NCBI RefSeq assembly: GCF_023516715.1
Contig: NZ_JAMGSI010000001.1
Location: 124,001 to 188,000, forward strand
Direction of reading: 5' to 3'
DNA: 64,000 nt
Source: Akkermansia massiliensis
Lineage (GTDB): Bacteria > Verrucomicrobiota > Verrucomicrobiia > Verrucomicrobiales > Akkermansiaceae
Shown here: positions 52,818-61,523 of the stretch, piece by piece
How the letters are laid out: each line of letters begins with the position of its first letter
How positions within the stretch are numbered: the stretch's first letter is position 1
Notes under the pieces: model-generated
The model's database searches: none
What the model was told of the DNA's origin: nothing
What the model saw: only the letters and a program-made list of their open reading frames with translations
Position numbers and translations under genes: made by a program

Positions 52818-52894
52818 CGGGAAGTAGCTCAGCCTGGTGGAGCGCCTGCTTTGGGAGCAGGATGTCGCAGGTTCGAATCCTGTCTTCCCGACCA
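52818..52894 (+). tRNA. tRNA-Pro (anticodon UGG), probable integration target
   Basis: A complete cloverleaf with acceptor CGGGAAG/CTTCCCG, anticodon loop TTTGGGA (anticodon UGG), T loop TTCGAAT and encoded CCA. Its 3' end is 119 bases before the integrase gene of the element, the usual geometry of an attL within a tRNA gene. The exact core needs the right end, which is outside the window. Confidence 0.95.
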
Positions 52895-53013: not shown

Positions 53014-54090
53014 ATGCTTGAAGGCATGAAAAACACCCTCGTTGCGACGGATTATCCGAACCTGTACAAGTCAAAGGAGTCAGAAATTTTCTATGCCCGC
53101 ATCGACAGAGGAAGAAAAACGGTGAAAAAGTCCCTCAAGACGCGCGTTTTGACGGAAGCCCTTTCCAGGCTTGCCGGGTTTCTGGCGGAGCAGGGGAGGG
53201 ATGAATTACCTGTGGAATCCGTGTCTTGGTATTTGGCGGTTGATATGTACGTCCAGCGGCAGGAGATGAGGCCCAACCTCAAGCCGGCCGCGGTGGAATC
53301 CATCAAGTTCTTTGCCGGTCGTGCCAAAAAGCTTGTCGTCCGCGACATGGCGGCGGAAGCCATCACGGAACAAATATGTCGGGTTTGGTGGAAGAAGGAT
53401 GCTCTGTCCGTATCTGCACGCACAGCAAACGGAACGCTCGCCATTGTGAAAAATGTATTTTCCATGCTCCAGGATGCTGGCTGCCTCAAGAACAACCCAG
53501 CAGCCAAGCTTGAACGAATGACGTTGCGGAGCGGAAAACTTCATGTTCCTGGAAAAGAAGATTTCCGGAGAATTATTGAGGAAGTGAAAAAAGCTCCTAT
53601 ATTAAGGAAGTGGCAAAAAAAGGGCCTATATTCCGAAGCGGCGGACATGATCTCCTTCCTGGCTTATTCAGGGCTGCGTATTGAAGAAGCCCGGCGCCTG
53701 GTGTGGGGAGATATTGGAAAGGAATCTATTTCCGTGCCTGACATCAAGCATGCCACCTCACGCCGGACCCTGTACATTAACGCATCCCTGGCCGAGGTGA
53801 TAGAAAGCCTCCGAAGGGAAAGACGGGGGAATAGCCCCGATGACCCGGTATTTGCCATAGAAAACCCCCGGAAAGCCCTCACAAACGCTTGTATCAGGCT
53901 TGGGCTGCCTCACGTCCGTATTCACGACTTGCGCCATTTCTTCGCAACGTCCTGCATTGAAGCAGGGATTGACATTCCTACGGTTGCAAAATGGCTCGGC
54001 CATCGTGACGGCGGAGCGCTGGCTATGAAGGTGTATGGGCACCTCCGGGACGAACACAGTAAGGAGGCCGCAAAGAAGCTTGTCTTCTGA
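53014..54090 (+). CDS. int: Tyrosine-family integrase
   Basis: This site-specific recombinase inserts and excises the element. The 358-residue protein has an N-terminal arm/SAM-like part (about 1-180: KESEIFYARIDRGRKTVKKSL; TANGTLAIVKNVFSML) and a catalytic domain with all key residues. These are Arg in YSGLRIEEARRL, HDLRH (304-308), GH (329-330) and the nucleophile Tyr341 in VYGHLRDE. ATG 53026 is an alternative start. Its position next to the tRNA-Pro 3' end supports integration there. Confidence 0.93.
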   Translation: MLEGMKNTLVATDYPNLYKSKESEIFYARIDRGRKTVKKSLKTRVLTEALSRLAGFLAEQGRDELPVESVSWYLAVDMYVQRQEMRPNLKPAAVESIKFFAGRAKKLVVRDMAAEAITEQICRVWWKKDALSVSARTANGTLAIVKNVFSMLQDAGCLKNNPAAKLERMTLRSGKLHVPGKEDFRRIIEEVKKAPILRKWQKKGLYSEAADMISFLAYSGLRIEEARRLVWGDIGKESISVPDIKHATSRRTLYINASLAEVIESLRRERRGNSPDDPVFAIENPRKALTNACIRLGLPHVRIHDLRHFFATSCIEAGIDIPTVAKWLGHRDGGALAMKVYGHLRDEHSKEAAKKLVF

Positions 54091-54149
54091 TTTATCAAAA
54101 AAAGATAAATACCTATTGACAATTTATCATATATTGATAAATTGTCGGC
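54091..54149 (+). promoter_or_regulatory. Operator and promoter of the element's first operon
   Basis: Two dyads are present: TTTATC-N7-GATAAA (54091-54109) and a perfect 12-bp-arm palindrome GACAATTTATCA-TATAT-TGATAAATTGTC (54118-54146). TTGACA (54116-54121) and TAAATT (54138-54143), 16 bases apart, fall on the second dyad, so a bound protein would block the promoter. The start site would be near 54150, the ATG of the next gene, which suggests a leaderless mRNA. Confidence 0.6.
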
Positions 54150-55166
54150 ATGAAGTACGAAATCACCTACTCATGCGGCCACGAAGGCGTCAAAGACTTG
54201 ATCGGCAAACAATCTGAACGGGACAGAAAGATCAGGTATTATGAAACCCAATGCCTGTGTCCGGAATGTGCCCGGAAAAAGCGGGATGAAGAAAACAAGG
54301 CGCTGGGCGTTGTCCTGCACCTGACCTGTGACCATGATACCGAAATCATTGAAATCATTGCCTACGGCGACACCTACGCCCACAAGGAAGAGCTGAAGAA
54401 GCTGGGGTTCAGGTTCGGTGAAATATCATGCGCTTTCTTGAATACAAGCCGCTACGGCGCGCGTCAGAAATGTTGGTCCTACACTCCCAGCTATTCAACC
54501 CCGGAGGAACTGAAGGCGGAATATGATTCCCTGGTTGCCCGCGTCAAGGAAGGCGTGACGACGCACGTTTCCGAACGGAAGCCTGAAATGGGAGACATTT
54601 CCCTGCTCAACAAAATCCTGTTGAACCGCAAGCAGGAACTTGAACGCAAGGAGCAGGAGAAAAAAGAAGCGGAAGCCGCTCGCCAGGAACGGACCCGCCA
54701 GGAGACCGAAAGGAAAGCTCAGGAAGAACGCAACAAGTGGAAGCGCGTTGCCATTCCTGCCGAATGCGCTCGGAACATCGGGGGTATCTCTGGAAATATC
54801 CGCATCAAATTCCCTGCGGAATCCCGTCTGGCCGAATACTCGTTTGTGGTCGGCAACTACTGCGTTTTTGAAGGCAGCCATGATGGGGAACTTTACCTTG
54901 AACTGTACCGGAATTTCGAGAAGACGGCCATGAAGCTGAAAAGGCTTGAGAAGAAGAATAAGCAAGGGAAATGGTACGAGCTCGTCGAACCGGTCACGAT
55001 TCATAGGGCGGACGTCATTGAATGCTTCGGGAACGAAGTTGACCATGACGCCCCAAAAACGGAAAAGGCTTCTCTCGTCTATGACGACGGAAAAGAGGAA
55101 ATCCACCATACGCCGGAACCTAAAACCCCTGTTGACATTGATGCAGCCGAGGAACTTAAACGATGA
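54150..55166 (+). CDS. Phage-type zinc-finger and coiled-coil protein
   Basis: The 338-residue protein begins KYEITYSCGHEG and continues ETQCLCPECARKK, giving a likely zinc site (C9, H11, C37, C40). A charged coiled coil spans about 160-200 (RKQELERKEQEKKEAEAARQ). The rest is not recognised. Similar beginnings (YSCGHEG) occur in hypothetical proteins of gut phages. It may be the first protein of the modification cassette, since its 3' end overlaps the helicase start by 26 bases. Its start codon lies 4 bases after a strong operator. Confidence 0.7.
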   Translation: MKYEITYSCGHEGVKDLIGKQSERDRKIRYYETQCLCPECARKKRDEENKALGVVLHLTCDHDTEIIEIIAYGDTYAHKEELKKLGFRFGEISCAFLNTSRYGARQKCWSYTPSYSTPEELKAEYDSLVARVKEGVTTHVSERKPEMGDISLLNKILLNRKQELERKEQEKKEAEAARQERTRQETERKAQEERNKWKRVAIPAECARNIGGISGNIRIKFPAESRLAEYSFVVGNYCVFEGSHDGELYLELYRNFEKTAMKLKRLEKKNKQGKWYELVEPVTIHRADVIECFGNEVDHDAPKTEKASLVYDDGKEEIHHTPEPKTPVDIDAAEELKR

Positions 55167-56310
55167 TCAGGCGGAGGCTGTCCGCAAGCTCCATGAACTG
55201 AAGGTGGGAGCCCTTTTCATGGAGTGCGGAACCGGCAAGACGCAGACGGCTTCTGTCCTGGTCAACTCCGTGGACGGGGTGGATTATCTGCTGTGGCTTT
55301 GCCCCTGCCAGACCAAGGACAACTTGAGGCAGGAAATAGCCCGGTGCGGCTTGCGGTATGAACCGGATATTGTCGGCATTGAGTCTATCGGCCAGAGTGA
55401 GCGAATTTACATGGAAGTCATGCGGAAGCTGCAAGCGGCCACGCACCCGTTCATTGTGTGCGACGAGAGCATCAAAATCAAAAACCTGTACGCTGTCCGG
55501 ACCCGCCGCTTGTTGACCCTTTCCAGACTGTCGGAATACAAGCTTATTTTGAACGGAACCCCGTTGACAAAGGGACTCACTGACATTTACGCTCAAATGG
55601 AATTCCTGTCTCCGAAAATTCTGGACATGAGATATTCCGAGTTCCTTGATACGTTTTGCTACTACCATGCAATCAAGAGGTTCAAGCGTGTTGTCAAACG
55701 CGTGATTGTGGGGTACGCGAATATAGACTATCTGCTTTCCATCATCCGCCCGTATGTGTATCAGTGCAGCCTGAACCTCCCCCTTGAAAAGCAGTATGGA
55801 GACCGCTGCTATTCCCTCACGGACGAAGAAATGGCGGCCTATGAACACCTCAAGGAGCGCTTGCTGACGCTTGACGTGTTCAGGGACACCCATTTTTTTG
55901 GAATCATCCAGCGCATGCACCATCTCTATTGCTGCTCGGAAGGTAAATTTGAACTCATGGAAAAGCTGCTGACACCTCGAACGATCGTCTACTGCAAATT
56001 CCTGAAGAGCAAACGAGAGATTGAAAAACGGTTCCCGGGAACGCTGGTTTTGACCTACGGGAAGGGGTCTTTTGGCTTGAACCTGCAAGCGTACAACCGC
56101 ATTGTCTATTTTGACAAAACGTTTGACTACGCATTCCGCGAACAATCTGAAGCCCGTATTTACAGAACCGGACAGCAAGAAGACTGTTCCTACTTCGATT
56201 TGAGTGGTAATGTCGGCCTGGAATATTTGATGGATGAATGTATCAGGAAGAAAACGAACCTGATTTCTTACTTCAAAACCCACGGAAACGAGACTATAAA
56301 AAAACTATGA
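55141..56310 (+). CDS. SNF2-type DNA helicase/translocase
   Basis: The 389-residue protein is a compact superfamily 2 enzyme of the SNF2 group with core motifs only: I MECGTGKTQTA (27-37), Ia WLCPCQTKDNL, II VCDESIKIKN (the DEx-x-IKN form), III LILNGTPLTK, and V/VI LNLQAYNRIVYFD and EQSEARIYRTGQ. It lacks extra domains, so it probably works with partners. ATG 55141 (MQPRNLNDDQ) is chosen because it gives a Q-motif-like start and overlaps the previous gene; the frame from 54946 is unrelated to helicases. The stop codon overlaps the next start (ATGA). Confidence 0.85.
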   Translation: MQPRNLNDDQAEAVRKLHELKVGALFMECGTGKTQTASVLVNSVDGVDYLLWLCPCQTKDNLRQEIARCGLRYEPDIVGIESIGQSERIYMEVMRKLQAATHPFIVCDESIKIKNLYAVRTRRLLTLSRLSEYKLILNGTPLTKGLTDIYAQMEFLSPKILDMRYSEFLDTFCYYHAIKRFKRVVKRVIVGYANIDYLLSIIRPYVYQCSLNLPLEKQYGDRCYSLTDEEMAAYEHLKERLLTLDVFRDTHFFGIIQRMHHLYCCSEGKFELMEKLLTPRTIVYCKFLKSKREIEKRFPGTLVLTYGKGSFGLNLQAYNRIVYFDKTFDYAFREQSEARIYRTGQQEDCSYFDLSGNVGLEYLMDECIRKKTNLISYFKTHGNETIKKL

Positions 56311-57050
56311 AGGCTATCTTTCTCGGTGAGCAAAATCCGAAGGAAATCGTTGAGGATTATCTTAAAAACAACCAGATAGAGAGAGTGTTCATCATTGGCG
56401 ACAAGATTGACCTGGACTCGGGCGCCCGCGTGGATCACATCACGTATGCTCAAACTATCCTGTACAAATTTTATTATCCTTGGTTGAAAGACATTACGTC
56501 AAATTGCCTCGTCGTGTGGAACAATGCCATGCGGACAAAAAGCCGTTACGACCTGCATTATAACTGCATCAGGCGGTACATGCAGCAGGCGGACCACCGC
56601 ATCATTTTTGAACATTTCCCGGTCAGGGAGAAGGAAGAGGAATTCATGATCCTTTGGGATATGACGCTGAACAACCCCTTTTTGAAAGAGCCCTACGCTG
56701 AATGCGATTTTTCGCAGGGTGAAATTCACCTGGGGGACATCCGGTTTGAAGTCCATGAAACTCCCGTGGAGTTGGATGAAGAAGAGCTGGCCGCTTACGC
56801 TGCCGAAAAGGACCGGATTGTTGGGGAAGTGAAGAAAGACCCGAACATTGTGCCGCGGCGCCTTCTGAAATGGACGGAAGCCTTGGCTGCCAAAAAGGTT
56901 GGCGGGGAATACGACACCAAGGGAACCATCAAGCCGGTCATGAACGTGACCGTCACCAATACGGGGGTTGACGCATACTATATGGGCCGCCTCAATGATT
57001 ACAGAAGAGCAGTAAACAATGTCTGCGAAAAAATACAACGTCGAGGTTAA
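56307..57050 (+). CDS. Unknown protein of the modification cassette
   Basis: The 247-residue protein is not recognised. It begins MKAIFLGEQNPKEIVEDYL with a probable alpha/beta start (ERVFIIGDKIDLD), has aromatic-rich segments (LYKFYYPWLKDI, RYMQQADHRIIFEHFP) and an acidic linker near 170, and ends VDAYYMGRLNDYRRAV. The start overlaps the helicase stop by ATGA, and the 3' end overlaps the next gene by 32 bases, so translational coupling is likely and the product should work with its neighbours. Confidence 0.65.
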   Translation: MKAIFLGEQNPKEIVEDYLKNNQIERVFIIGDKIDLDSGARVDHITYAQTILYKFYYPWLKDITSNCLVVWNNAMRTKSRYDLHYNCIRRYMQQADHRIIFEHFPVREKEEEFMILWDMTLNNPFLKEPYAECDFSQGEIHLGDIRFEVHETPVELDEEELAAYAAEKDRIVGEVKKDPNIVPRRLLKWTEALAAKKVGGEYDTKGTIKPVMNVTVTNTGVDAYYMGRLNDYRRAVNNVCEKIQRRG

Positions 57051-58137
57051 CGTAGTGGATGCCGCCCGGGAAAGGATGGCGTTCATCTTTGACCACTTTG
57101 AAGACATCATCGTATCCATTTCAGGGGGGAAAGATTCAACCGTCCTGTGCCACCTTGCCCTTGAGGAAGCCCGGCGCCGCAGGCGCAAGGTCGGCTTGTT
57201 CTACCTTGATGAAGAAGTCGTCTATGACGCTACCATCCGGCAGGTAGAATACCTGATGGACATGGACCCCGAGCACACCATGCGGTACTGGTTGCAGATT
57301 GAATTCAACCTGACCAACTCGGTTGACATTTCAAACGGACAGTTCCATTGCTGGGACCCGAAGGAGCGGCCCAACTGGATGCACAAGCGCAGTTCAAAGA
57401 ACATCCTCAACCGGACATGGACACATGAAACCGTTATTGCCGACAAGAACAAGGGGTTCGGCTTTTACGATGTCATTACCAATTTTGAGATGGGATTCAG
57501 GAATGCTGCGTTCCTGGTGGGGCTCCGCGCAGACGAAAGCCTGAACCGGTACAGAACCATGATCAAGCATCCTGGCTTTGAGGGCGTGTTCTGGTCCACG
57601 AAAAAGCAGTTCGGCAATTTTGCCTTTTACCCAATTTACGATTGGGCCTTTTCCGACATTTGGAAGTACATCGCGGAACATGGGCTCAAGTATCATAAAT
57701 ACTATGATTTTGCCTTCCTGAAGGGAACCCCGCCTCACGCTATGCGCGTTTCTTCCCTGGTGCATGAAAAAAGCTTCAAGGCCATTCAGGACTTGCCGGA
57801 ATTCGAGCCGAAGACCTATGACCGGCTTTTGAAGCGGACCAAGGGCATTTCCTTTGCCCAGGAGACGGCTAAGGATAAAAAGATGTTCAGATGCCAGCAG
57901 CTGCCGAAGAACATCAAGACGTGGCGCGAGTACAGGGACATCCTGCTTCAAACGTACCCGGTCCCGGAGCGCCGCGAGATATTCCGGAAGCGGTTTGCAA
58001 AACACCTGGACAACGAATTTGTTGCCCGGCAGCAATGCCGGCAGCTCATTTTGAATGACTATGAAAACAACCTCCCCGTGAAGAACACGGAAGACCCGCT
58101 GGTTGAAAAGCTCAACTACTGGAAAGATATTTTATGA
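57019..58137 (+). CDS. PAPS-reductase-like (IbrA-type) protein
   Basis: The 372-residue protein belongs to the PAPS reductase/ATP pyrophosphatase family, with the PP-loop SISGGKDSTVL (33-43). YLDEEVVYDATIRQVEYLM, HCWDPKERPNWM, LVGLRADESLNRYR and IYDWAFSDIWKYI follow, the layout of the DUF3440/IbrA group rather than of the sulfate-assimilation enzyme. The reductase Cys of CysH (ECGLH) is missing, so it is not expected to reduce PAPS. DndC, the sulfur-inserting enzyme of phosphorothioation, is a distant relative. It is followed by a ParB-like gene, the usual IbrB partner, one small gene away. A nucleotide or sulfur chemistry role is inferred. Confidence 0.85.
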   Translation: MSAKKYNVEVNVVDAARERMAFIFDHFEDIIVSISGGKDSTVLCHLALEEARRRRRKVGLFYLDEEVVYDATIRQVEYLMDMDPEHTMRYWLQIEFNLTNSVDISNGQFHCWDPKERPNWMHKRSSKNILNRTWTHETVIADKNKGFGFYDVITNFEMGFRNAAFLVGLRADESLNRYRTMIKHPGFEGVFWSTKKQFGNFAFYPIYDWAFSDIWKYIAEHGLKYHKYYDFAFLKGTPPHAMRVSSLVHEKSFKAIQDLPEFEPKTYDRLLKRTKGISFAQETAKDKKMFRCQQLPKNIKTWREYRDILLQTYPVPERREIFRKRFAKHLDNEFVARQQCRQLILNDYENNLPVKNTEDPLVEKLNYWKDIL

Positions 58138-58140
58138 AAA

Positions 58141-58176
58141 TGATAAATTGCGTTGAATATTTATCAAAAAATGATA
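58141..58176. promoter_or_regulatory. Internal operator-like dyad of the element
   Basis: TGATAAAT (58141-58148) and ATTTATCA (58159-58166) form an inverted repeat with a 10-base spacer, followed by another TGATA. The half sites match those at 54091-54146. It lies in the 49-base gap after the IbrA-like gene, the only gap in the operon. Confidence 0.5.
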
Positions 58177-58186
58177 CGTGTGTCTC

Positions 58187-58567
58187 ATGAATGAAAATCC
58201 CGCCAAGCACCCTTTCTATGTAATTATTGATGATATGGCGTCCACACTGAATAGAATGCCATTGTCTGCCGCGGAAATAACCGATTTAGCATCGTCCATC
58301 CGCGACGGGCTTCGTCAGGCACAGAACCCGAATTTGATATATTTCCTTTCAGAGTCCGTTGATCTGTCTCCAAAAAGTAGGGATGTTGGAAATATTGATG
58401 AAAGCCGACTTCACGAAGAAGTGGAACGGGTTATTGGCGAAGTTATTGTTCTATCTCAATTTGATTTATATGAAATGAACTCAAGAATTACTTTTGCGAG
58501 GCATTGTTTAGAAATCGCTGATACACTAGATGCCCTGGCTTGCAGAATAAGGAATTACATCGTATGA
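58187..58567 (+). CDS. Small acidic protein between IbrA- and IbrB-like genes
   Basis: The 126-residue protein is not recognised. It is helical and acidic: PFYVIIDDMASTLNRMPLSA, EITDLASSIRDGLRQA, LHEEVERVIGEVIVLSQFDL. ATG 58187 is chosen; GTG 58178 is an alternative. The codon use is more AT-rich than that of its neighbours, which suggests a separate origin. The stop overlaps the next start by ATGA, so it is translated with the ParB-like gene. Confidence 0.6.
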   Translation: MNENPAKHPFYVIIDDMASTLNRMPLSAAEITDLASSIRDGLRQAQNPNLIYFLSESVDLSPKSRDVGNIDESRLHEEVERVIGEVIVLSQFDLYEMNSRITFARHCLEIADTLDALACRIRNYIV

Positions 58568-59082
58568 AAATCGACATTCCATGCCTAGACGTGCGGATGG
58601 TAGACCGGGAAGAGCTCCAAGCCAATGATTACAACCCGAACACCGTTCCCAGGGACAAAATGCTCTTGCTGAAGCAGTCCATTTTGGATAATGGATTTTG
58701 CTTCCCTATTGTGACGATTTGGAGCGAAGAAGACGAAAAATATATTATCGTTGACGGGTTCCACCGTTTCACAATTTGCCAGCCTGAATGGCTTAATATC
58801 AAGAAAGTTCCTATTGTCGTTCTGAAGCACGATTTGAGCCAGCGCATGACGGCCACGGTGCAATTCAACAAAGCGCGGGGTGTCCACGCCGTTGACAAGG
58901 ATGCAGACATTGTGAAAGCACTGCTGGAACAGGGGAAGAAGGAAGAGGAAATTGCAAACTCCCTCGGGCTGGATTTGGACACGGTACTGCGGTACAAGCA
59001 GATGACCGGCATTCTGGCCCTGTTTGAAGGGGTCAACTACTCTCATTCATGGGGCATCAAAGACGGGGAGGACGCGCAATGA
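58564..59082 (+). CDS. ParB-like nuclease-fold (IbrB-type) protein
   Basis: The 172-residue protein has the ParB/Srx-like fold: ELQANDYNPNTVPRDKMLLLKQSILDNG in two segments, then the nucleotide-binding VDGFHRF (63-69), and LSQRMTATVQFNKARG. A C-terminal HTH-like part follows (EEEIANSLGLDLDTVLRY, about 137-155). IbrB proteins are regularly paired with IbrA-like PAPS-reductase homologues. ParB-fold proteins use CTP or act as nucleases; the activity here is unknown. Start and stop overlap the flanking genes by 4 bases. Confidence 0.82.
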   Translation: MKIDIPCLDVRMVDREELQANDYNPNTVPRDKMLLLKQSILDNGFCFPIVTIWSEEDEKYIIVDGFHRFTICQPEWLNIKKVPIVVLKHDLSQRMTATVQFNKARGVHAVDKDADIVKALLEQGKKEEEIANSLGLDLDTVLRYKQMTGILALFEGVNYSHSWGIKDGEDAQ

Positions 59083-59966
59083 GCAATGAAAACAAATGGG
59101 AATACGACGGGAGCATCAAGAAATACCCCATTGCCCCCGGCGAAGTGTGGGAGCAGGAAGGAAACAAAGTTGCCATCAATGACATCTTTGACGGGCTGCC
59201 CGCTTTCATGAAGGAAGCGGACTTGGTTTTCATCGACCCTCCGTGGAACTTGGGGAATGCAAACGCGTTTGTGACGAAGGCCGGGCGGACTGATTACAAG
59301 GATGATTTTGTCCGGTTCTACAAGAAAGTCTTTGAACGGTTATCGGAAATCAACCCGGAAACCGCCTATATTGAAATCGGGAAGGAATATCTTGCCGAGT
59401 TCATGATAGAGGCAAAAAAGCTTTATAAGTACGTTACTTGCTACAATTCCTCCTATTACCACAAAAAGGAAAATGTGTGCTACGTCATCCGGGCCAGCAG
59501 GAAGGCCAAGAAGCCCAAGCTTGACGGGCTGGACGAAGAAGACATCATCGCGTGGATTTGTGAGAATGAAGAGTATTCCTGCATTGGCGATTTTGTGATG
59601 GGCCGCGGGCTGGTCGGGTACTACGCCCATAAATTCGGGCGCCGCTTTGTAGGGTGCGAGCTCAATCCGAATCGGTTGGCCGTTCTTTTGAATAGGATCG
59701 GTGGAGAATGGAAGGTTTCACCGTTGCATGATTCCATCCCAGTTTTAAAACAGCTTATTGAGTACAATGGACGCCTGCTGGACCCGGTTTTCATCATCGG
59801 GCAACGCATGAAGGAACTGACGGGGCAGGGAATCCCTGTAATGGAGGCCCGGGCGAAGATTGCCGCTCATTTTGGGGTGAAGCCTCTGACAATTCACCGA
59901 TGGACAACGCGCCAGTCTGATTTTCCTGTGAAGCTTGAAATGGTAAAAAAGCTTGTGGCTTTATAG
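59079..59966 (+). CDS. Beta-class DNA methyltransferase
   Basis: The 295-residue protein has the catalytic DPPW motif (53-56, LVFIDPPWNLG) ahead of an AdoMet-binding region (MGRGLVGYYAHKFGRRFVGCELN, about 168-190, in two segments), the order of beta-class N6-adenine or N4-cytosine methyltransferases. No target-recognition domain is obvious. A C-terminal HTH-like segment (ARAKIAAHFGVKPLTIHRW, about 255-273) may guide it. It is the last gene of the overlapping cassette (ATGA overlap with the ParB-like gene) and converges on an HTH gene. No cognate restriction enzyme is in view, so a self-protecting or DNA-modifying role is inferred. Confidence 0.85.
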   Translation: MSNENKWEYDGSIKKYPIAPGEVWEQEGNKVAINDIFDGLPAFMKEADLVFIDPPWNLGNANAFVTKAGRTDYKDDFVRFYKKVFERLSEINPETAYIEIGKEYLAEFMIEAKKLYKYVTCYNSSYYHKKENVCYVIRASRKAKKPKLDGLDEEDIIAWICENEEYSCIGDFVMGRGLVGYYAHKFGRRFVGCELNPNRLAVLLNRIGGEWKVSPLHDSIPVLKQLIEYNGRLLDPVFIIGQRMKELTGQGIPVMEARAKIAAHFGVKPLTIHRWTTRQSDFPVKLEMVKKLVAL

Positions 59967-60427: not shown

Positions 60428-61192
60428 TTATCCTTTACGCCAATCTTTCAACGTTTCCACATACACGGCGGAGATTTTACCTTCTTCAATGGGCTCTACA
60501 TCCTTAAAGGCTGAGTTGATAGACTTGAGGACATATTCTTGTTTCCCTGTTTCAGGATTCTTGCGGCGGCCAAGTTTTTTCAGGGTATAGTCATTCCCCT
60601 CATTGTAAACCACCAAGGTTCCAAGCTTGGGAAAGAGATAATCCTTGTATTCTCTTACGACAACCAGCGAGCCATCCGGTATTTTGGGCTCCATCGACTT
60701 CCCATTCACGTGCAGTACATATTCGTCTTTCTCCAAGGGGCGTCCGATAAGAATGTCCTGTAGAATGGTCGCACCGTCCGCGGGTTTACCTGCGGCCGTG
60801 TTACCTATGATTTGTGCTTTATAGTCCGGCGACTCCACTGCTGTTTCAACCGGAACAAACTGCCTACGGACAGGTTCTTCTTTGGCCGCGTTTTTGTAAT
60901 ACTCCCGGGCAGTGACCTGGAGGATATAGGAGACCATGTCTTCAAGCTTTTTGTGCATTTCGTCCGCCAGGGACCGGAGTTGTTTTTCAAAGTCAGGGGG
61001 AAGTTCAAATTCAATTTCTTCATCCCCGTTCATGAGGCGTTCAATGAGTTCCATTTTTTGAGAAACGATCGGCTTGCCTGCGGAAAGCCAGTTATCCACC
61101 GTTCGCTTACTGACCAGCGTTTTTTCAGCTAACCAAGCGCGGTCTTTCCCTATCTCTTTGAGCCACGTTTTGATGTCTTCTGCATTGAGCAT
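60428..61192 (-). CDS. Phage-type repressor with S24 peptidase domain
   Basis: The 254-residue protein has an N-terminal HTH (WLKEIGKDRAWLAEKTLVSKR in parts, about 6-40) and a C-terminal LexA/CI-type S24 domain. It contains VLHVNGKSMEPKIPDGSLVV with the catalytic Ser (about 174) and GNDYTLKKLGRR with the Lys (about 213). It is expected to hold the element silent and to inactivate itself on RecA activation. A clear Ala-Gly cleavage site was not placed; TAAGKPADG is a candidate. The start at ATG 61192 is preferred over 61243 because it starts the HTH fold. It is divergent from a small Cro-position gene. Confidence 0.88.
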   Translation of the reverse strand: MLNAEDIKTWLKEIGKDRAWLAEKTLVSKRTVDNWLSAGKPIVSQKMELIERLMNGDEEIEFELPPDFEKQLRSLADEMHKKLEDMVSYILQVTAREYYKNAAKEEPVRRQFVPVETAVESPDYKAQIIGNTAAGKPADGATILQDILIGRPLEKDEYVLHVNGKSMEPKIPDGSLVVVREYKDYLFPKLGTLVVYNEGNDYTLKKLGRRKNPETGKQEYVLKSINSAFKDVEPIEEGKISAVYVETLKDWRKG

Positions 61193-61201
61193 GTCAGCAT
61201 T

Positions 61202-61296
61202 ATGCACCAGAAGCGCATTAGAGGCAATAGAAATATTTATCATGAATGCACCTAGAGCGAAAATTAATATTGACTAGATTTCGTTTGTGGTGCATT
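61202..61296. promoter_or_regulatory. Three ATGCACC half-sites in the divergent repressor region
   Basis: ATGCACC occurs at 61202-61208 and 61246-61252, and its reverse complement GGTGCAT at 61289-61295. The spacing is about 44 and 43 bases, that is about four helical turns. The sites flank the repressor start and a TTGACT (61270-61275) for the rightward genes. Confidence 0.45.
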
Positions 61297-61328: not shown

Positions 61329-61523
61329 ATGATCATCGACCTGAGAAAAGAACCGAAAGAAGTAAGGGAATGGGTACAGGATGCCGAGAGGGCCACAGGC
61401 TTGAGCGGCTTTGCTCTCATTATGGGAGCCATTATGGATTTTTCCAACAAGGCTAAAAAGAATCGTCGCCCCCGTAAGAATCCCGCTCCCAAGAAACCAA
61501 CAACGTATCCCAAAGAAAAATGA
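61329..61523 (+). CDS. Small basic protein in the Cro position
   Basis: The 64-residue protein has a short helical front (IIDLRKEPKEVREWVQDAER) and a hydrophobic stretch (LSGFALIMGAIMDFS), then a Lys/Pro-rich tail (KKNRRPRKNPAPKKPTTYPK). No HTH is obvious, so a Cro role is only suggested by position, divergent from the repressor. ATG 61329 is chosen over the frame start 61287, which lies in the operator region. Confidence 0.45.
   Translation: MIIDLRKEPKEVREWVQDAERATGLSGFALIMGAIMDFSNKAKKNRRPRKNPAPKKPTTYPKEK

Follow-up and report, generated by a model that had tools for sequence, protein, structure and literature searches.

IbrA and IbrB, encoded by ibrAB in Escherichia coli (ybdN in K-12), form a pair that occurs in phages, plasmids, and bacterial chromosomes. 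The pair is defined as a protein with PAPS_reduct and DUF3440 domains together with an adjacent ParB-domain protein, and the first partner is a PP-loop enzyme; such enzymes usually adenylate their target, as is the case for TilS, MnmA, and QueC. A second group of systems with a PP-loop gene, the type IV-B CRISPR (clustered regularly interspaced short palindromic repeats) systems, has a role that 'remains a mystery' in the words of one passage of PMC7937560, and a passage of PMC8175902 points to the CysH-like gene as probably holding the key to them. The subject of this report is a gene cassette carried by a prophage of Akkermansia massiliensis (assembly GCF_023516715.1, contig NZ_JAMGSI010000001.1, positions 124,001 to 188,000; these 64,000 nucleotides of a 3.28 Mb genome are the window referred to throughout). 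The cassette embeds an IbrA-IbrB pair in a conserved set of six genes, two of which are exchanged for a type IV-B-like CRISPR module in some relatives on viral contigs.

All seven open reading frames (ORFs) of the cassette are on the forward strand between positions 54150 and 59966, and are lettered A (zinc finger), B (SNF2), C, D (IbrA), E (small acidic), F (IbrB), and G (methyltransferase). With the most likely start codons, neighboring ORFs overlap by 26 (A/B), 4 (B/C), 32 (C/D), 4 (E/F), and 4 (F/G) bases; a preliminary description, made from the letters of the window, had given seven rightward genes mostly overlapping by 4-32 bases, and this holds at five of the six junctions, the exception being a 49-base gap between D and E. 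Its assignment of SNF2, PP-loop, ParB-fold, and beta-class methyltransferase identities is borne out by Pfam matches and motif order.

Related loci were collected from IMG/VR through D, G, or C, rather than through SNF2 or type IV-B loci at large, and span at most 9 kb on each side, many contigs being shorter. Profile searches with the D subfamily and with G yielded 46 and 11 loci, respectively, and removal of near-copies at 95% D identity reduced 55 D loci to 45. Scanning with hidden Markov models (HMMs) showed that the order A-B-C-D-F-G recurs in many contigs: the 45 distinct D loci comprise 28 with A-B-C-D-F-G, 1 with B-C-D-F-G, 8 with C-D-F-G, 5 with D-F-G, 2 with C-D-F, and 1 with D-F, and several of these contigs stop inside the cassette. 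The recurrence of one gene order in dozens of contigs places the arrangement beyond chance, and the gene set is functional and no accident. The co-occurrence expected of all seven genes is therefore found for six, and well beyond this element, which overturns the condition that would have spoken against the preliminary proposal. E, which had been counted as part of the set, matches a single near-identical viral contig (IMGVR 2854655614) but is absent from all the others among the 120 loci compared, and so falls outside the core. The conserved cassette is A, B, C, D, F, and G, its core is C-D-F-G, and E is a local addition. Within the same genus, A. glycaniphila Pyt carries C-D-F-G without A or B, beside a tRNA-Ser gene and, on the other flank, genes that look chromosomal by eye; a Fusobacterium varium plasmid carries D-F-G without A, B, or C.

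The most distinctive feature of these loci is the exchange of A-B for a CRISPR-associated module. Scanning with 38 C sequences recovered 66 loci, 65 of them with a C ORF (L148, in which none was called, was dropped) and 52 distinct at 90% C identity. SNF2 gene B lies upstream in 34 of the 52, Csf2/Csf3 genes lie nearby in 14, no locus has both, and 4 have neither, two of which (L067 and L115) lack most of the upstream sequence. The core is constant across these classes, with D adjacent in 51 (counting the D ORF of L138, which is below the scan cut-off and is included as a row of the D tree), F in 51, and G in 50; L142 has none of the three, and its contig stops 615 bases past C. A is present in 30 of the 34 SNF2 loci, and the other four either have short upstream sequence (L135, L155) or a long B ORF of 659 or 683 aa (L131, L132). 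The PADLOC profiles detect Csf1, Cas11, Csf2, and Csf3 in L049 and L053, and Csf2 in L062 and ten further loci, for a total of 13 of the 14 contigs with E-values of 4e-28 or better; Csf2 of L104 was assigned with a profile built for this analysis. All 14 of these loci also have a second, CysH-like PP-loop gene, versus 1 of 33 in the SNF2 class, which includes truncated loci (because the cysH and D profiles overlap, the PP-loop ORF following C was taken as the main D, and the second gene was counted separately). Several of the best PADLOC Csf profiles are labeled CAS-IV-A, and the B-like subtype was called from the CysH-like gene, from Cas11 where seen, and from crude screens, rather than from a Csf2 tree; the screens of the 14 loci found no DEAH-box ORF of at least 450 aa outside the families and no CRISPR-like array.

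Zero overlap between 34 and 14 loci among 52 has a hypergeometric probability of 1.7e-9, a figure that ignores relatedness, and the phylogeny of D is to be preferred. In a tree of 53 D proteins (L142 is excluded, its contig ending before D) the module label switches about 6 times (5-7 across bootstrap trees), well-supported (starred) branches force at least 3 of these switches, and a single change is seen in 0 of 200 bootstrap trees, with the bootstrap not fully settled. The labels are also clustered on the tree (no shuffle of 500 gave as low a count), as inheritance of the modules would predict. The clearest swap is L118, an SNF2 locus that is sister to the type IV-B-like L104 and L105 with support of 98/95; L118 and L105 share 85% identity in D, 76% in F, 67% in G, and 54% in C. 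The label changes and this pair of loci indicate that the core stays while the part joined to it, here called the delivery part after the role proposed below, is swapped. The delivery part has been exchanged repeatedly, and SNF2 and type IV-B-like versions are mutually exclusive in the loci examined. Neither this interchange nor the fold of C had been noticed in the preliminary description.

That description left C as an unknown, and no Pfam family is above cut-off in the window protein. Among 38 family members, no PHROG matched more than one (single stray matches occur), and the sole pertinent Pfam hint is SNF2-rel_dom with an E-value of 0.0049 in one member. By sequence, C has no match in the PDB at E 1 and no relative in annotated phages at E 0.01, and PADLOC has no match for A or C. 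C is not featureless, however: an AlphaFold model built with 38 sequences (predicted local distance difference test, pLDDT, 90.3; predicted template-modeling score, pTM, 0.85) is SNF2-like. Foldseek returns SNF2 remodelers with a best E-value of 1.8e-5, but with template-modeling (TM) scores of ~0.3-0.56 and a large root-mean-square deviation (rmsd). VIA-align matches the model to CSB (Z 13.3, rmsd 3.6, 234 of 247 residues aligned), in a list of 50 rows that are mostly SNF2-type ATPases and include CSB/Rad26 and RapA. A catalytic Walker A is missing: the N-terminal stretches of 52 members contain no GKT or GKS (L101 has NKT), a G-x5-K pattern occupies the expected GKT site, and the motif II site reads DE/NE-C-hRTQNR.(D/E)L.YNC or variants. 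Judged by its model, C is thus the second, degenerate SNF2-fold protein of the cassette and represents a new family. A draw of 387 Verrucomicrobiota genomes gave one with C, that of the window itself; the C-carrying A. glycaniphila is absent from the named matches.

D, with its PAPS_reduct and DUF3440 domains, and the adjacent ParB-domain protein F correspond to the IbrA-IbrB pair. The SGGKDS motif is complete in 53 of 53 members of the D subfamily, and DG.HR is invariant in 51 of 51 members of the F family. Across a wider D family of 22 homologues, K-D-S and a G.R..ES..R motif are invariant and a cysteine never is, the best cysteine column reaching 12 of 22 and being non-Cys in the window. 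The catalytic cysteine motif of assimilatory 3'-phosphoadenosine-5'-phosphosulfate (PAPS) reductase is a C-terminal ECGxH. D lacks ECGxH and scores under the curated cut-offs of PAPS reductase models, in keeping with its initial description as a PAPS-reductase homologue without the reductase cysteine; yet 49 of 53 subfamily members retain a C-terminal cysteine, Cys340 (Cys111 is retained in 38 of 53), and the four members without Cys340 still keep the PP-loop. The suggested link to DndC-type sulfur insertion fares less well. DndC carries a cysteine dyad, as stated in parts of PMC10853773 and PMC12839542, and because D has none, the argument from DndC fails; sulfur insertion by D was accordingly rejected as a candidate activity on the absence of the dyad from the wide family. 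DndD, DndE, SspB, and cysteine desulfurase were likewise sought among eight window proteins scanned with Pfam, NCBIfam, and PADLOC, and none was found. The proposal of an uncharacterized DNA modification system therefore keeps its functional gene set and, as the best reading still, a DNA-modifying role, and loses its sulfur chemistry.

Of the remaining genes, A is well modeled at residues 1-40 (pLDDT 96-97) and poorly beyond ~residue 50 save for one helix, so that the whole-protein model (pLDDT 61.8) is too poor for structure search. No Pfam match is above cut-off in the window protein, no Pfam family is common to more than one of 24 members of the A family, and annotated phages gave only three short zinc-finger matches. 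In the alignment B shows Walker A, DExx, a GTP motif III, and an R..GQ motif VI, and its PADLOC matches to ZorD, DrmD, and DpdE are weak, general hits. In G, DPPW precedes a glycine-rich motif that binds S-adenosylmethionine, which is the beta-class order, and all 52 members compared share D53 and P55 of DPPW. Most relatives of G are ~210-265 aa and thus have no obvious target-recognition domain, whereas a C-terminal extension resembling a helix-turn-helix (HTH) is common to the window and A. glycaniphila and absent in the F. varium homologue (49%). No relative of G was found in annotated phages at E 0.001.

The reading that we favor, and to which we give about an even chance, is that the cassette is a prophage-borne nucleic-acid-modifying system composed of the core C-D-F-G and an exchangeable delivery part. 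The core proteins would act in a physical complex with DNA as the substrate. D, as a PP-loop enzyme, would carry out an ATP-dependent adenylation of its target, probably a base in DNA, C would probably serve as a DNA clamp or adaptor that is catalytically degenerate, F would be a ParB/Srx-fold nucleoside triphosphatase with an HTH, and G would methylate an amino group of a base. AMPylation has been proposed for CasCysH in a passage of PMC8175902. In the window, zinc-finger protein A and SNF2 motor B would carry the core along double-stranded DNA, and in other phages the delivery part would consist of a type IV-B-like Csf complex and its CysH-like enzyme instead of A-B. A modification complex is consistent with the shared core, the missing reductase cysteine, the presence of a methyltransferase, and the existence of two alternative nucleic-acid-binding delivery parts. 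The modification would most likely mark the phage's own DNA, either against host nucleases or for expression or packaging, a purpose that the position beside terminase genes fits: D-F adjoins terminase genes in several phages, and terminase and portal genes are also among the cassette neighbors in viral contigs (in a tally of 52 hand-picked ORFs, mostly from 157 listed). More tentatively, and somewhat short of even chances, C-D-F-G might be a portable modification engine that plugs into either an SNF2 motor or an RNA-bound Csf complex, in which case phage type IV-B systems would target PP-loop modification of DNA rather than cleavage, and the Akkermansia cassette would be their motor-driven twin.

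Several observations weigh against this reading. In the window B, ~30 residues of the second RecA domain are missing, although all 20 other members of the alignment have them, and the protein may be impaired; the position of G in the cassette varies among loci. D-F pairs also occur alone on bacterial chromosomes and plasmids, so that C, G, and a motor are dispensable for their action, and in 10 of 16 phage loci with D the stretch read contains no B. E and the HTH tail of the window G are left unaccounted for, and the one reported phenotype of ibrAB is said to be the activation of prophage genes.

The alternatives, in falling likelihood, are defense, transcription control, help with replication, and phosphorothioation. 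The strongest, which we consider unlikely, is prophage-encoded defense in the manner of superinfection exclusion, whereby the cassette would recognize and inactivate competing phages or plasmids, A-B or Csf finding the target, D and F forming a nucleotide- or DNA-targeting effector, and G protecting self DNA. The cassette does lie between an integrase and a CI-type repressor, a usual site of lysogenic cargo, the union of SNF2 and methyltransferase genes is reminiscent of DISARM and BREX-3, B has weak matches to defense profiles, and part of PMC8175902 discusses type IV systems in inter-element conflicts. However, the eight proteins scanned include no nuclease domain, PADLOC is blank for A and C, and relatives of D and F adjoin terminase and portal genes in Flavobacterium phage FCV-1.

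A role as transcription regulator is somewhat less probable again. D-F would modify DNA or protein and so activate silent prophage or host genes, as proposed for E. coli ibrAB, and the SNF2 proteins would remodel nucleoprotein or RNA polymerase. Phage homologues annotated 'co-activator of prophage gene expression', D-F pairs without an adjacent methyltransferase, and the transcription-coupled CSB/Rad26 and RapA among the structural neighbors of C are consistent with such a role, but the annotation is by transfer, and the methyltransferase and the exchange with a Csf complex are left unexplained. A replication or packaging helper, in which the SNF2 motor and DNA-binding proteins would aid the phage DNA with D and G as passengers, appears very improbable: B-like helicases occur in 196 phage records, with B but no D match in at least 37 of 39 Vibrio and at least 8 of 10 Acinetobacter records (genus counts), and terminase and portal genes neighbor the cassette, but DnaB and RecT are already encoded by the prophage, and D and F remain with C when the motor is replaced, and are thus not passengers of B. 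Least probable of all is a phosphorothioate (Dnd/Ssp-like) sulfur modification of phage DNA, which the shared PP-loop superfamily, a weak PADLOC match of D to DndC (6.3e-8), the pairing in Dnd of a PAPS-reductase-like enzyme with ParB-like DndB (in a part of PMC10853773), and the frequent Cys340 would favor, against the missing partner proteins, the wide family without a conserved cysteine, and the loss of Cys340 in 4 of 53 members with an intact PP-loop.

The element carrying the cassette is a prophage of Akkermansia lying beside tRNA-Pro, which is its likely attachment site (Table 1); RecT, DnaB, terminase, and portal genes accompany the repressor 3' of the cassette. Allowing up to 2 mismatches, the window contains four palindrome sites, versus 1.18 expected, a number reached in 1 of 100 shuffles. 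The fourth, with 2 mismatches, is at 61439-61457, and the repressor gene starts ~200 bases away. The sites 5' of A and 5' of E suggest that the cassette has its own operator and that E was inserted later.

Table 1. Cassette genes, flanking prophage features, and palindromes, in window positions
Feature	Position	Strand	Basis or remark
tRNA-Pro (tgg)	52818..52894	+	ARAGORN; adjoins integrase
Tyrosine-recombinase integrase	53014..54090	+	Pfam Phage_integrase 1.7e-17; phrog_1 6e-43
Palindrome TTTATC-N7-GATAAA, exact, operator-like	54091..54109		Upstream of gene A
Palindrome TTTATC-N7-GATAAA, second exact copy	54123..54141		Immediately 5' of gene A, beside TTGACA box
A: N-terminal zinc-finger-like protein (CGHE..CLCPEC), coiled coil, variable C-terminus	54150..55166	+	Family HMM 7.3e-50
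B: SNF2 ATPase/translocase, Walker A GTGKT, motif II DES	55141..56310	+	Pfam SNF2-rel_dom 2.8e-9; phrog_62 helicase 1.3e-54; alignment
C: degenerate SNF2-fold protein without GKT Walker A (predicted)	56307..57050	+	AlphaFold, Foldseek, VIA-align, motifs
D: IbrA-like PP-loop enzyme (PAPS-reductase family), SGGKDS, DUF3440 part	57019..58137	+	PAPS_reduct 7.4e-15; DUF3440 7.1e-8
Palindrome, third copy, 2 mismatches	58160..58178		5' of gene E
E: small acidic ORF, local addition	58187..58567	+	Locus comparison
F: IbrB-like ParB/Srx-fold protein with HTH region	58564..59082	+	Pfam ParB_N 1.8e-6; phrog_2159 1.3e-50
G: beta-class amino-methyltransferase (DPPW), C-terminal HTH-like extension	59079..59966	+	Pfam N6_N4_Mtase 4.6e-7
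CI/S24-type repressor	60428..61243	-	phrog_4 7.8e-13; 3' of cassette

In annotated phages, 215 records contain a relative of D and 224 a relative of F, with equal counts in eight named genera; the equality is one of genus-level counts. SNF2, D, and F genes are adjacent in 6 of 16 examined phage loci with D, D and F occur without B in 9, and in one locus, at the record end, D has neither; the SNF2-D-F neighbors follow three gene orders, one in Flavobacterium, one in Lactobacillus and Streptococcus, and one in Fusobacterium. D and F are fused into one 539-aa ORF in phage contig MT836384 (L037:224-1843). A distant second IbrA-IbrB pair is found near tRNA-Asn in this genome and another Akkermansia (L018:8071-10084, L021:8225-10140); in G000 it follows a short ORF that begins with CGHKGV, a sequence similar to the A zinc finger. 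Fusobacterium phage phiFN37 (L024:8581-12714) has SNF2, IbrA, and IbrB genes near queuine transglycosylase and queuosine transporter genes and further ParB-like genes. A terminal run in Microbacterium phage Hendrix (L029:3598-7146) of glucosyltransferase, methyltransferase, N-acyltransferase, and IbrA-like genes is a candidate modification cluster. In L115, G-C-D-F is followed by terminase-, portal-, and MuF-like genes (by eye) and the contig ends upstream, and a small viral contig has a reverse-transcriptase-like ORF (by eye; L002:3192-4094) near C-D-F and two tRNA genes.

With regard to delivery parts, a 625-aa ORF directly 5' of G-C-D-F in L133 (6471-8348) has a start (KPLMPCHPARARQL.., GIDPG) resembling that of IscB, on a contig with no SNF2 B match and no Csf match; it is possibly a third, RNA-guided delivery part. 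A 60-nt tandem repeat of near-identical units, not like a CRISPR array, lies near one type IV-B-like locus (L123:330-809). On Rhodovastum plasmid RHOApd (L163:6760-14824) a type IV-B-like operon with cysH has ParB and DUF3440 genes on the opposite strand, 1.4 kb and 2.8 kb beyond cysH, with a GNAT gene in between.

No description of the cassette or of its type IV-B link was found in searches of open PMC papers (preprints excluded), and PMC5512222 has no mention of PAPS, phosphosulfate, Ibr, or PP-loop. One conserved gene set links IbrAB to type IV-B systems, and adds to them a methyltransferase and a putative pseudo-SNF2 protein. The ability of an SNF2 motor and a Csf complex to substitute for each other suggests that the substrate is double-stranded DNA and that it is modified rather than cleaved. 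As a CRISPR-free version that can be directly expressed and assayed, the cassette would make the functions of IbrAB and type IV-B testable.

Compared with described systems, the cassette shares with Dnd, Ssp, and type-4 BREX a PAPS-reductase-family enzyme that adjoins a ParB-fold protein (DndC/DndB), and differs in lacking the cysteine dyad and the Dnd/Ssp partners. With DISARM and type-3 BREX it has in common an SNF2 ATPase gene adjoining a DNA methyltransferase gene, and the eight scanned proteins include no further component of either; B is ~390 aa, matches only part of DrmD profiles of 748-872 positions, and misses the curated DrmD cut-off (36.9 bits vs 950). The SNF2-IbrA-IbrB trio of Flavobacterium, Streptococcus, Lactobacillus, and Fusobacterium phages has adjacent homologues of B, D, and F, in another gene order, with no C or G match and with D 28-34% identical. 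IbrA-IbrB itself is of the same families as D and F and is likewise an overlapping or adjoining pair, whereas the window pair sits in a six-gene set with a methyltransferase and two proteins of known or predicted SNF2 fold. In the type IV-B-like locus of Rhodococcus pRHL3, cysH is present and, by annotation, no core lies within 12 kb. CasCysH, like D, is described in a passage of PMC8175902 as a PP-loop enzyme without the reductase cysteine. HMMs for Csf1, Csf2, and Csf3 gave no match at E 1e-3 in the window, L166, or L167. A type IV-B-like operon accompanies the C-D-F-G core in 14 of 52 distinct C loci, and the window carries A and SNF2 protein B in place of the Csf genes.

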